A DNA stretch of 64,000 nt from Kordia periserrulae (lineage in GTDB: Bacteria > Bacteroidota > Bacteroidia > Flavobacteriales > Flavobacteriaceae), in contig NZ_QBKT01000001.1 of NCBI RefSeq assembly GCF_003054265.1, positions 186,001-250,000 of the forward strand, given 5' to 3'. Every line of letters starts with the position of its first letter. The stretch's first letter is position 1. Positions 10,637 to 14,494 of this stretch are shown piece by piece. The notes below the pieces were generated by a model, which saw only the letters and a program-made list of their open reading frames with translations, did not search any database and was not told the origin of the DNA. Both the position numbers and the translations under genes were made by a program.

Positions 10637-11038
10637 TTATGTTGAAGAAACGCTTCTTTTAAAAACGTATGTTTTCAAAAAAATCAAACTTATCAACGCA
10701 GTCGATAGCAAACAAATTCCCCAAACCCATCGGTGATGAAACTGCAATACTTCCACCAAAAACAAATGCAATACAGTACTAAAAATCAATGCGCCAACAT
10801 CCACCACAAAGGCTTTGTACAAACTTTTAACATACGAACCTTTATGTGAAAACGTGAATTTTCTGTGCAATGCATGTTGGCGCACAATACCAATCACAAA
10901 AGCTGCAATCCAACTCAGCGTAGCTTTCGGCGAAAACGGATTGACATAGTACATAACTTCATAAGTCAAAAATCCTAAAATCACACCGATTCCTGCAATA
11001 ATTAACATTCGAAATGTTTCAGATTGTTGGTTGTTCAT
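10637..11038 (-). CDS. GtrA-family membrane protein
   Basis: 133 residues with four hydrophobic segments (about 12-30, 40-55, 80-98, 105-122) and the GtrA-type pattern GVILGFLTYEVMYY near the N-terminus and KTYVFKR near the C-terminus. GtrA proteins are small inner-membrane proteins implicated in moving polyprenyl-phosphate-linked sugars across the membrane. It is the last gene of the minus-strand operon with the HMG-CoA reductase fusion, CarS-like and CDP-alcohol transferase genes, separated from the latter by 70 bp made largely of an octad repeat array. Its place suggests flipping or presenting a lipid-linked product, which is inference. Confidence 0.85.
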   Translation of the reverse strand: MNNQQSETFRMLIIAGIGVILGFLTYEVMYYVNPFSPKATLSWIAAFVIGIVRQHALHRKFTFSHKGSYVKSLYKAFVVDVGALIFSTVLHLFLVEVLQFHHRWVWGICLLSTALISLIFLKTYVFKRSVSST

Positions 11039-11108: not shown

Positions 11109-11675
11109 CTACTTCCAAAGAACCCAATACAAACCTTTCGCGTCTGTTTTCATTTCGTTTGAAATCAGCAAAATGATCAATTCTTCTACATGTGAAATGT
11201 ATCCTAAAATCATAGCGATGTAAAATAAAGTTTCGTTGTAACTCCACGCAAACAGCACAAAAATGAAGAAACCTTGTACGTAACCGCCAATTTTTGTAGT
11301 GTATAAATGTAAGGTCGGATATTGCTTGAACTTGAGAAACGACACCAACAATCCTAAAAAGAAGAAACCGATAAATACCCAAAGCATCCAAATGGACTGT
11401 GACATTTCTTGAAGTTTAAACATAAAAATTCCCAAAAAAGCCGCGATAAAGGTTCCGTTGTCGGCGAGTGAATCGAGTTTTGCGCCAAAGTTGGTTTGCA
11501 GATTGAAACTTCGCGCAATCAAACCATCTAAAATATCTGTGACGAGATTTACACATAAAAATATGGCAAACAAATTCGCTTCTTCAGTGTAAATAAACCA
11601 AAGAATCAACGGAAACGTGAGCAATCTGTAAAAACTTAAAAAGTTAGGAACGTTGTAAATGTTTTCTTTTTGCAT
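11109..11675 (-). CDS. CDP-alcohol phosphatidyltransferase family enzyme
   Basis: 188 residues with several membrane segments. The family signature D-x2-D-G-x2-A-R-x8-G-x3-D-x3-D is complete: DILDGLIAR, then GAKLDSLAD 8 residues later (about residues 47-71). These enzymes displace CMP from a CDP-alcohol with a second alcohol, as in phospholipid head-group transfer. The substrate cannot be read from the motif. The start codon follows the stop of the CarS-like gene by one base, so the two are translationally coupled. Next to a CTP-transferase-like protein, the natural reading is that this enzyme uses the CDP-activated lipid or alcohol made by that neighbour. Confidence 0.92.
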   Translation of the reverse strand: MQKENIYNVPNFLSFYRLLTFPLILWFIYTEEANLFAIFLCVNLVTDILDGLIARSFNLQTNFGAKLDSLADNGTFIAAFLGIFMFKLQEMSQSIWMLWVFIGFFFLGLLVSFLKFKQYPTLHLYTTKIGGYVQGFFIFVLFAWSYNETLFYIAMILGYISHVEELIILLISNEMKTDAKGLYWVLWK

Positions 11676-11676
11676 G

Positions 11677-12192
11677 TTAAAATGATTTTTTAAGGTGTAA
11701 TTGAACTAAGAAATAACTCATACTGATATGTAAACTGCTTGAAATCGCAAACAACAAAAGTGCGTTGGGAAACGTGATAAATCCCAAAAGGAAATACACC
11801 AAATTCACGCCGAAAGCAGAATCTGTTTTATCAAGAAGCATAAAAAACAATGCGTGTGTTTCAGATTTTTCACCAGCTTCAATTCCTAGTTTGCGTTTCA
11901 TATACGAATTCGGCAACTCAAACAACATATAGGAAACACCCAACACAAAACCGAGCCAAAATGCATGTGTTAAGTGAAATGAAAAAAGTAAATTCATTAA
12001 AAACAACAACAATCCATTTACGACAGAAACTACCAGAAATCCGCGCCAGGTTTTGTTGTTGCCAAATAATTTTGTTGAAATCGGACGCTTTACATTTGAA
12101 AAAATAGCTGTCTTAATAATGATCATGTGCAACACATTTGATATGAGCAACGGCAACAAAACGATGGCAATATGCTGTGAAAAACTATACAT
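11677..12192 (-). CDS. CDP-archaeol synthase-like (CarS/DUF46) membrane protein
   Basis: 171 residues from the chosen start MYSFSQHIAIVL, whose ATG lies inside the last codons of the fusion gene (8-base overlap). A longer frame exists upstream but runs back through the fusion gene. Five hydrophobic segments are visible. Motifs resemble the CarS/DUF46 family, related to CdsA: LFGNNKTWRGF (about residues 43-53), a PNSYMKRKLGIEAG segment and DKTDSAFG near residue 120. CarS activates an unsaturated archaetidic acid with CTP in archaea; bacterial relatives have unknown substrates. Here it is coupled to an HMG-CoA reductase/kinase fusion and a CDP-alcohol transferase, which supports a lipid-activation role. 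The exact substrate is not shown by the sequence. Confidence 0.8.
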   Translation of the reverse strand: MYSFSQHIAIVLLPLLISNVLHMIIIKTAIFSNVKRPISTKLFGNNKTWRGFLVVSVVNGLLLFLMNLLFSFHLTHAFWLGFVLGVSYMLFELPNSYMKRKLGIEAGEKSETHALFFMLLDKTDSAFGVNLVYFLLGFITFPNALLLFAISSSLHISMSYFLVQLHLKKSF

Positions 12193-14494
12193 CTTCCTCC
12201 AAAAATTTGAGCATTTGTAATGCCGTTTGCAACACACGTTTTGAAAAATCATACGCAATCAAAATGCTAGAAACTTCGTAAAAGGAAAGTCGCGTGATGA
12301 TGTACACTTTCAACGAATATTGGCTCGCTTGCAACCATTCGTGCCACGTTGCTCCGTTATACAATTCAAAATGTTCTTTTAGATATTCGTAAAAAGTTGC
12401 TTTGTTAAAATTTTCAGGCAATACAAAACTCAAAAACTCCACAATATCGCGCTGTGGAAAATCGACAACCGCCAATTCCCAATCGTAAATGGCAGGTGTT
12501 CCATTCTTCCGAATCGCAATGTTTCTCGGGTTGCAATCGTTGTGAATAATCGTTTTTGCTATCGAAATTTCATTGGCTTGTGTTTCCAAATTGTCTATTT
12601 CATTCAGTAAATTTTTCAACGCAAACCGATTTTCTGCTGTAGCACATTCCGCAATCAACAATTGCATCATTTTTGTATACAATTCGGCAGCGTTCCAAGG
12701 TTGAAAAGCTTCAATATGTGTAAAATCTTTCACAGAAACTTCTTGGTGAAACTGCGTCATCGCTTTAATCACTGAAGAAATATGTGGTTTTTTCCAATGC
12801 GTTGGATGATTTTCCGCATTCATCAATTGCATCTTTTCGGCAGGCAAAAACTCTTGAATCAGCATAAAAATCTCGCGTTTCAAATTGACGTGTTTTCCAA
12901 AATATTTCGGCATGCATTCAAAACCGTTTTTGTGCAAATACGTGTAAATTTCAATTTCTTTCAGATGACAATTGTGATATTCCAACTGTGGCTTGAAACG
13001 TTTCAGCAAATCCGACAATTTCGGATCAATGGAAGCTGCGATTGTGTGCAAGCCTTTCATCACTTCATCGTCCAACGGTTTGGATTTTATGAGTACATCT
13101 TTGATTTTTTGCTGTCCATTTTTAGTCGTGTATGCAATTTGAAACGGCAAAAACCCAATAATTTTTTTATTGACTTTAGAAGCGATATTCGTCAAAATTC
13201 CATTCTCCAGCAACGCATGTGTTTTCGGCTGAATATCTTGAATCTGCTTGTCTTCAAAAAAACCATTCAAACTCGATTGCACAAAATTTGGCGTCAATTC
13301 AGACAGCAACAACCACGAAACAGGTTTATTTCTTCCTAATTTTTCATGTGCTTTCGCGAATTCACCACTAACAATTGCCGCATAGGTTGAAATTTCCAAA
13401 CCTAAGGCAAAACCAGCAATCAATTTGGCAAAACGCATCACTTTTCCACTTCCGCGACACTTCATAATTTCCAGTGCTTGCGCTTGTCGCGGCAAGGAAG
13501 TTCCACCACCAACCGTACCAATGACTACATTTGGAAGCGTCAACTGAACATGTAAACCGTTCTCTTTTTTTGACAAATGCAATTGTCCAACACTCGATTC
13601 ATGAATCGAAGCCAAATCTTGTCCAGTTGCTACAAAAATAGCGGCAATCGCATTCGCTACGTTGATGTTATAGCCAATCATGCCATCTTTTTCTGCTAAT
13701 TTTTTTGACGGATAAAAAAACTGTAATAACTTTTCAGAAGTCGTTCGCAATACTTTTTGAATGATTTCTTCTGAAAGAGTACATTCAGCCACCACATGAA
13801 TTCCTCTTCCCGACTCCATATTATAGCGAGACACTTTTTTATCGCACGCGCCGTTGCCTTCAATCACAAAATCTACAGGCTTGATATTTGTTTCTTTAAA
13901 AAACGCTTCTACTAAGTGCAACATAGCATGCCACGTACAGGTCGTCGTCATATTTTGTCCCGATGCATCGCCAGTTTCATAAGTGAATTTTGTGTGAATG
14001 ATGTGTTCTTGTTGGATATTTTCTATCTGAATTAATGTAGCATGATTGGAATGCGATTCCGCAACTTTTTTGATAGCTTGAAATGTGTTTATAACAAATT
14101 GCTTGAAAATACTCGCTTCTTCTTCATTCGTAAAAATAAACATCGGCGCACGCGTCATTTTTTGCCATTTTACTTCCGCAGAAAAACCATTGCTCTTGCT
14201 GATAACTTTTGCTCCACGATTCATGCTGGCAACCAACGCACCTTCCAACGTTCCTGCGGGTGCGTACACCAATTCCTGTGTTCCGTTATCGTTAAAAAGT
14301 AGTGGACCAACAATTCCGAGTGGAATTTCAGTGCTTCCAATATAGGATTCTATATTTCCGCGAATATCATGAAACTCCAATTTCGATTGTGATATCTCAT
14401 TAATTTTGATGTTTTGCTGTGTTAAAAAGTCCAAACGCAAGTTGGTCGCTGTGTTTGTAACCAATCCTCTTCCTGGAATAATCGGTATTTCCAT
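12185..14494 (-). CDS. HMG-CoA reductase fused to an APH/choline-kinase-like domain
   Basis: 769 residues, two enzymes in one chain. Residues 1 to about 430 are an HMG-CoA reductase (mevalonate from HMG-CoA): NIESYIGSTEIPLGIVGPL, TLEGALVASMNRG (Glu84), GDASGQNM in the nucleotide-binding part, CDKK (Lys219/220), GQDLASIHES (Asp293), GTVGGGTSLPRQ and AKAHEKLGRN (His383). So the catalytic Glu, Lys, Asp and His all seem present, in class I/archaeal-like form. Residues about 440-769 are a protein-kinase-like small-molecule kinase: VLIKSKP as N-lobe lysine strand, HNDCNPRN (Asp653, Asn658) as catalytic loop and IYDWE (Asp671) as metal-binding motif. This is the pattern of aminoglycoside phosphotransferase/choline kinase enzymes. 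Natural substrates of the kinase are unknown. It is first in an operon with CarS-like, CDP-alcohol transferase and GtrA genes. Confidence 0.9.
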   Translation of the reverse strand: MEIPIIPGRGLVTNTATNLRLDFLTQQNIKINEISQSKLEFHDIRGNIESYIGSTEIPLGIVGPLLFNDNGTQELVYAPAGTLEGALVASMNRGAKVISKSNGFSAEVKWQKMTRAPMFIFTNEEEASIFKQFVINTFQAIKKVAESHSNHATLIQIENIQQEHIIHTKFTYETGDASGQNMTTTCTWHAMLHLVEAFFKETNIKPVDFVIEGNGACDKKVSRYNMESGRGIHVVAECTLSEEIIQKVLRTTSEKLLQFFYPSKKLAEKDGMIGYNINVANAIAAIFVATGQDLASIHESSVGQLHLSKKENGLHVQLTLPNVVIGTVGGGTSLPRQAQALEIMKCRGSGKVMRFAKLIAGFALGLEISTYAAIVSGEFAKAHEKLGRNKPVSWLLLSELTPNFVQSSLNGFFEDKQIQDIQPKTHALLENGILTNIASKVNKKIIGFLPFQIAYTTKNGQQKIKDVLIKSKPLDDEVMKGLHTIAASIDPKLSDLLKRFKPQLEYHNCHLKEIEIYTYLHKNGFECMPKYFGKHVNLKREIFMLIQEFLPAEKMQLMNAENHPTHWKKPHISSVIKAMTQFHQEVSVKDFTHIEAFQPWNAAELYTKMMQLLIAECATAENRFALKNLLNEIDNLETQANEISIAKTIIHNDCNPRNIAIRKNGTPAIYDWELAVVDFPQRDIVEFLSFVLPENFNKATFYEYLKEHFELYNGATWHEWLQASQYSLKVYIITRLSFYEVSSILIAYDFSKRVLQTALQMLKFLEEDV

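Follow-up and report, generated by a model that had tools for sequence, protein, structure and literature searches.

HMG-CoA reductases (3-hydroxy-3-methylglutaryl-CoA reductases, HMGRs) of the mevalonate pathway bind HMG through Ser684, Asp690, Lys691, Lys692 and Asp767, together with Glu559, Lys735, Asn755, Leu853 and His866 of the other subunit (PMC7503714; pocket sites are given in human numbering). FcrA, an HMGR homolog described in 2025, reduces fatty acyl-CoA and not HMG-CoA, and its reported hallmarks are an acidic residue in place of Ser684, a small residue in place of the salt-bridge lysine and a bulky residue in place of Leu862 (PMC11948995). The lysine is printed there as 795; it is taken here as 735, the HMG-site lysine of PMC7503714. 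Described examples come from Natronomonas pharaonis and 'Ca. Promineifilum breve' (Pb-FcrA), and the extra domains named in the main text of PMC11948995 are an N-terminal Lad (alkyl carrier domain) or an acyl carrier protein (ACP). That main text mentions no kinase and does not use the terms phosphotransferase, fusion or CDP; likewise, no HMGR–kinase or FcrA–kinase fusion appears in the titles and abstracts of the open-licence PMC literature searched. Here we describe such a fusion, encoded at 12185..14494 in a 64,000-nucleotide stretch of Kordia periserrulae DNA (the window; contig NZ_QBKT01000001.1, positions 186,001 to 250,000).

The window protein shares with FcrA the HMGR fold, the catalytic Glu, Lys, Asp and His, an acidic residue at site 684, the lack of the salt-bridge Lys, a bulky residue at site 862 and an occurrence in genomes with either no mevalonate HMGR or a separate one (PMC11948995). 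It is unlike FcrA in its C-terminal kinase, in having Phe and not Trp at site 862 and Asn at site 752, in a genome with no match to the wax-ester enzyme WS/DGAT, and in its neighbours, a CarS-like gene and a CDP-alcohol phosphotransferase gene. Class I HMGRs (human; Methanothermococcus 6hr7, 37% identical in the Foldseek alignment) have the same fold and catalytic residues, but the HMG-binding residues are replaced in the fusion.

An unbroken reductase–kinase fusion

The fusion gene and its two halves are as follows.

12185..14494, minus strand: fusion of a predicted FcrA-type (HMGR-fold) reductase with an APH/choline-kinase-fold domain; 769-aa open reading frame (ORF) with an ATG start, domains from Pfam
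13331..14440, minus strand: Pfam domain HMG-CoA_red, residues 19-388, 320 bits against a cut-off of 27
12188..13327, minus strand: kinase half, residues 390-769, with its own N-lobe K470 and E513

The 769-residue frame has no internal stop, and the initial annotation, which gave no strand, was right that the two halves form one unbroken chain. The catalytic residues it named are also in place: E84, K219/K220, D293 and H383 in the reductase half, and the catalytic loop HNDCNPRN (651-658) and IYDWE (669-673, with DWE at 671-673) in the kinase half. Both halves exceed their Pfam cut-offs, the C-terminal one matching APH over residues 497-705 (50 bits against 23.2), as the kinase call had anticipated. 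The reductase pocket contains E212, F379 and N278 at the positions of human S684, L862 and H752, around the catalytic E84, K219, D293 and H383. When the window protein is aligned with 16 relatives (17 rows in all, two of the relatives being partial), K219, K220, D293, H383, K470, E513, H651, D653, N658, D671 and E673 are invariant, and the Glu of E84 is retained in all 17 fusion-type rows that reach that site. An AlphaFold2 model of the whole fusion has a mean pLDDT of 83.1 and a pTM of 0.57; the kinase half modelled by itself reaches 91.5 and 0.91. This is a genuine reductase–kinase fusion with intact catalytic motifs in both halves, and it is neither a chance joining nor an assembly slip, since relatives occur at 18 loci in GTDB genomes and on a Streptomyces plasmid.

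The 18 loci, some truncated by contig ends, encode proteins 34–92% identical to the window fusion, the closest from a Kordia sp. (92%). They comprise four Kordia, Bizionia, Psychroserpens, another Flavobacteriaceae (its contig being the same one as in genome G195) and, from metagenome-assembled genomes, Saprospiraceae, Chitinophagales, two Bacteroidales, three Flavobacteriales, Crocinitomicaceae, two Myxococcales and one unplaced bacterium. Two are contig-end partials (L043, L051) and another is interrupted by N (L044). The fusion of the Streptomyces sp. NBC_01435 plasmid is 32.7% identical over window residues 6-764; it came from a plasmid survey in which 10 of 36 records were inspected (6 of 18 for Streptomyces). 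The same fusion, sought in other Bacteroidota, is thus found there and also in Myxococcales and on this plasmid, a patchy spread over at least three phyla. Within the window's own family it occurs in two of 299 sampled genomes, the window's included, and there was no match in the one genome sampled from its genus.

The kinase half has the fold, the catalytic loop and the Lys–Glu pair of the APH/choline-kinase-fold enzymes. Structure comparison places choline, homoserine and aminoglycoside kinases nearest, at 8-14% identity among the 50 structural matches listed (10-14% to choline kinases, a match of fold only). Members such as the 25-hydroxysteroid kinase (9ft5) and LicA share the whole-domain fold, the Lys–Glu pair, HNDxNPRN and DWE, but identity to the fusion half is only 8-14%. 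An assignment to the homoserine, choline or APH subfamily by sequence was tried and given up, as the matches were weak and mostly to protein kinases. One weak profile match is ACAD11 (8v3v), a protein with an APH-type domain; it too has a kinase-like domain and an acyl-CoA redox enzyme on one chain, but the redox enzyme is unrelated and the domain order different.

Pocket residues, phylogeny and pathway markers

For the pocket comparison, the reductase halves of the fusions were aligned to stand-alone relatives drawn from 29 further genomes in the phylum and to eight mevalonate enzymes: those of human, Arabidopsis and Methanothermococcus, plus five from Streptomyces that are flanked by annotated mevalonate-pathway genes. 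The catalytic Glu559, Lys691, Asp767 and His866 are retained in every row that covers them: the last three in all 19 fusion-type rows, Glu559 in 17 of 17. Ser684 and Lys735 are both present in the eight mevalonate enzymes, and neither occurs in any of the 19 fusion-type or 29 stand-alone rows. The window protein has Glu for Ser684, Ser for Lys735 and Phe for Leu862. Across the fusion-type rows, site 684 is always Glu or Asp and site 735 is Ser in 17 of 19, with Phe and Val once each; most Kordia-like rows have a Lys close to position 735 that is not conserved across the wider clade. Site 862 is Leu in all eight mevalonate enzymes, Phe in all 19 fusion-type rows, and Trp (21) or Phe (8) in the stand-alone rows. 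The first two traits were noticed before the FcrA paper was found and the third was tested afterwards. At site 752 (window N278, 13661-13663) all 19 fusion-type rows have Asn, as does the Streptomyces fusion, and every other row compared has His.

These residues make an FcrA-type reductase half, as opposed to an HMG-CoA reductase, well supported on sequence grounds, and by analogy the window protein itself presumably reduces fatty acyl-CoA. The initial annotation had seen a complete-looking HMG-CoA reductase and linked it to mevalonate. That link does not hold: the pocket residues common to all eight mevalonate enzymes are replaced, and the replacements fit the published fatty acyl-CoA reductase (PMC11948995). 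We also considered the TIGR00533 cut-off as a mevalonate test. The fusion scores 266.3 bits against 441.8, but a Streptomyces HMGR from a mevalonate operon scores just 291.4, so the cut-off does not discriminate and was dropped after this calibration.

Pathway markers were searched in 31 genomes: the window's own, G195 and 29 of the 31 other genomes with an HMGR-like gene (G415 and G507 were left out). In 26 of them there is a strong match to DXR, marking the methylerythritol phosphate (MEP) pathway, no match to diphosphomevalonate decarboxylase (MDD) and a single PF00368 gene, a further point against a mevalonate role. The other five, the window's genome included, have MDD and a second PF00368 gene, whose class was determined in the window's genome alone. 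There, the second HMGR passes the class II profile TIGR00532 (292 bits against 260), so the fusion's genome also encodes a separate HMG-CoA reductase, a case the initial annotation had allowed for. The adjoining ORF is a GYDIA-family GHMP kinase in NCBIfam (420 bits against 225), a label that failed in Pfam. HMG-CoA synthase (PF08540) was rejected as a marker: it matched one genome of the 31 (G322) and missed the window's MDD-bearing genome.

Phylogenetic analysis separates the fusion and stand-alone rows from the mevalonate HMGRs; the dividing branch measures 0.78 changes per column (support 100/99), in a tree that held three mevalonate rows and drew long-branch warnings; published FcrA sequences were not included, and the partial L043 and L051 were left out. 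The fusion-type rows form one clade (100/98) beside stand-alone clades of 8 and 21, and the stand-alone rows as one group are weakly joined (84/64). In the clade of 21, all but one member (L019) have a long N-terminal extension, which we infer to be a Lad domain. A WS/DGAT search of 12 of the 31 marker-set genomes matched all four from this extended clade and none of the eight others, among them the window's. Given this distribution, the extended clade resembles the wax-ester FcrA type of the literature, and the fusion would serve something else. A wax-ester role for the fusion was accordingly set aside, WS/DGAT having no match in the window's genome or in G195; 14 control genomes likewise gave none.

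The larger loci of the clade of 8, one (L056) aside, have a different setting. At L052, L053, L054, L064 and L065, UbiA-like and dikinase-like genes lie beside the stand-alone FcrA-like gene, and four of the five also have an AMP-binding ligase gene. A DUF3419 gene is present at L053 and L065, with a weak GNAT match at L053; DUF3419 is presumably a BtaA-like family. These loci represent a putative second lipid cluster.

Neighbouring genes and a proposed pathway

Downstream of the fusion, on the same strand, lie the following genes.

11677..12192, minus strand: CarS-like CTP:lipid-phosphate cytidylyltransferase, 171 aa; Pfam CarS-like, 32.6 bits against 22
11109..11675, minus strand: CDP-alcohol phosphotransferase, 188 aa; Pfam CDP-OH_P_transf, 89 bits against 22
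10637..11038, minus strand: GtrA/DPMS transmembrane protein, 133 aa
9375..10490, minus strand: AraC-type regulator, next downstream; not counted with the operon genes

The CarS-like gene starts with an ATG inside the final 8 nt of the fusion gene; a 193-aa TTG-start frame at 11677..12258 is an over-long version of it. The CDP-alcohol phosphotransferase gene begins 1 nt past the CarS-like stop, and its translation contains D-x2-DG-x2-AR-x8-G-x3-D-x3-D, the signature of that family. By simple open-frame calls at the relatives' loci, a CarS-like gene follows the fusion in 13 of 19, and a CDP-alcohol phosphotransferase gene is near in 10 of 19. The pair resembles the CTP-activation and transfer genes of CarS lipid pathways. 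It is unlike them in that the substrate is probably not a glyceride and in that the CarS-like protein scores far below the NCBIfam CarS equivalog cut-off (PRK04032, 47.8 bits against 148). The AraC-type gene recurs at three of the four fetched Kordia loci (L035-L037). At several loci outside Kordia, a divergent gene of one family lies upstream of the fusion (L038 7918-8889, L045 1231-2184, L004 4012-4980); it appears helix-turn-helix-like on reading and is possibly a regulator, although no Pfam family matches the L038 copy at E 0.01.

We think it probable, though well short of certain, that the fusion is a bifunctional enzyme taking long-chain acyl-CoA to an alkyl phosphate for lipid synthesis. 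A fatty-alcohol phosphate is the probable product because the pocket matches that of FcrA and a kinase is fused behind it. The reductase half would convert long-chain acyl-CoA to fatty alcohol, which the C-terminal half would phosphorylate with ATP. That the kinase acts on the alcohol of the first half, as originally suggested, survives as our inference; the alcohol itself would not be one of the mevalonate pathway. The next genes, the first two translationally coupled to the fusion, suggest that a phospholipid may be built from the alkyl phosphate. In this scheme the CarS-like protein would join alkyl phosphate with CTP to give CDP-alkyl, from which the CDP-alcohol phosphotransferase would pass the alkyl phosphate to a hydroxyl acceptor. 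The GtrA/DPMS protein, possibly a flippase or an operon accessory, may carry the product across the membrane. The whole series, a new bacterial pathway from acyl-CoA through alkyl phosphate and CDP-alkyl to an acceptor, giving a phospholipid without a diacylglycerol part, is put forward tentatively and as something short of probable. The same caution covers its last element, that the fused module serves again in other settings: in Saprospiraceae, Chitinophagales and Myxococcales next to UbiA-like and dikinase-like partners, and in the Streptomyces plasmid cluster.

Several observations weigh against an acyl-CoA-to-alkyl phosphate enzyme. On the reductase side, the fusion clade is not the clade of the assayed FcrA, if the matching of clades, made only on WS/DGAT and N-terminal length, is right; its residue at site 862 is Phe where the presumed assayed clade has Trp, and its Asn at site 752 marks it off from all other rows compared. 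In addition, 12 of 59 modelled putative FcrA, mainly eukaryotic, may accept smaller molecules, and assayed FcrA in E. coli gave alkyl chains shorter than the in-vitro range (PMC11948995). As a side point on the marker genomes, G322 is counted as a mevalonate genome for its MDD and two PF00368 genes but gave a weak DXR match, just above the cut-off (23.2 bits against 21.7). On the kinase side, the profile of that half gives only weak top matches to solved structures (E 0.005 and worse), mostly protein kinases. At one locus (L047, 8883-10076), a fusion-type reductase 62% identical over window residues 2-391 ends just past the reductase domain, and no kinase follows in the remaining 0.7 kb of contig. 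Among the neighbours, no CarS-like gene is found at 6 of the 19 loci, two of which end ≤0.8 kb from the fusion; two relatives score below the Pfam cut-off for CarS-like (18.4 and 18.8 against 22 bits); and the window's operon genes include no acyl-CoA ligase.

Alternatively, the reductase may still make a fatty alcohol and the kinase act on a small head-group alcohol (choline, ethanolamine or an amino alcohol) or on a glyceride. The operon product would then be an ether lipid or else a standard phospholipid carrying a new head group, and the CarS-like protein would use phosphatidate or alkylglycerol phosphate. We regard this as rather unlikely. It would suit the kinase-fold kinships described above and the CarS family's naming after a diether phosphatidic-acid substrate, and ether-lipid roles have been suggested for some FcrA (PMC11948995). 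However, 18 of the 19 loci have kinase sequence behind the reductase, which suits sequential steps on one molecule; an ordinary CdsA (204 bits) lies elsewhere in the genome; and the four operon genes include neither an alkyl-DHAP synthase nor a PlsC-like gene, two enzymes not searched for genome-wide. A UbiA-type ether lipid was also considered for the window and rejected, with slight weight: the UbiA-like and dikinase-like proteins of L041 had no match in its genome, and such an empty answer weighs little.

It is less likely still that the reductase half takes another acyl thioester (isoprenoid, short branched or carrier-bound) within a general reduce-and-phosphorylate module of specialised metabolism. 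The surroundings of the Streptomyces relative, with a GH3-type ligase, an adenylation-ketosynthase protein, a thioesterase, a phosphopantetheinyl transferase and an APS kinase, would fit such a module, as would the UbiA-like and dikinase-like neighbours of stand-alone relatives; the pocket signature is nevertheless that of a fatty acyl-CoA reductase. Finally, a bifunctional HMG-CoA reductase and mevalonate kinase, for which the retained catalytic residues and the Pfam and NCBIfam family names might speak, is very improbable and was rejected on the replaced pocket residues, the MEP-marker genomes of its relatives and the second HMGR beside its GHMP kinase, the lipid-type neighbours also standing against it.

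If the fatty alcohol is indeed what the kinase phosphorylates, the FcrA family would extend from wax esters to phosphorylated products, and an undescribed phospholipid would be indicated in marine Bacteroidota. It would also predict a bacterial fatty-alcohol kinase, and we know of none described.

HMGR homologs on plasmids

The Streptomyces sp. NBC_01435 plasmid region (NZ_CP109493.1, 860000-882000; L075) has its fusion between the GH3-type ligase and a P-loop ORF that is thymidylate-kinase-like on reading and has only sub-cut-off AAA matches in Pfam. Also encoded there are adenylation, carrier and ketosynthase domains, a phosphopantetheinyl transferase and a thioesterase, together with the APS kinase, a PAPS_reduct-domain protein and an EF-Tu-like GTPase (CysD/CysN-like on reading). 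The region has the look of an undescribed biosynthetic cluster.

A different type of HMGR homolog is encoded on a Sinorhizobium meliloti plasmid (L074, 2860-4104); it has a gap at the Ser684 site and sits between acyl-CoA carboxylase and biotin carboxylase genes. Vibrio and Alteromonas plasmids (L070, L071, L076) carry homologs without Ser684 and Lys735 (D/T, A/S and D/T at these sites) and with Phe or Trp at site 862. Two of the three are annotated as hydroxymethylglutaryl-CoA reductase; to judge from these residues, they are probably FcrA-like and mis-named. Bacterial genes labelled HMG-CoA reductase, the window fusion included, should have their pocket checked before they are assigned to the mevalonate pathway.
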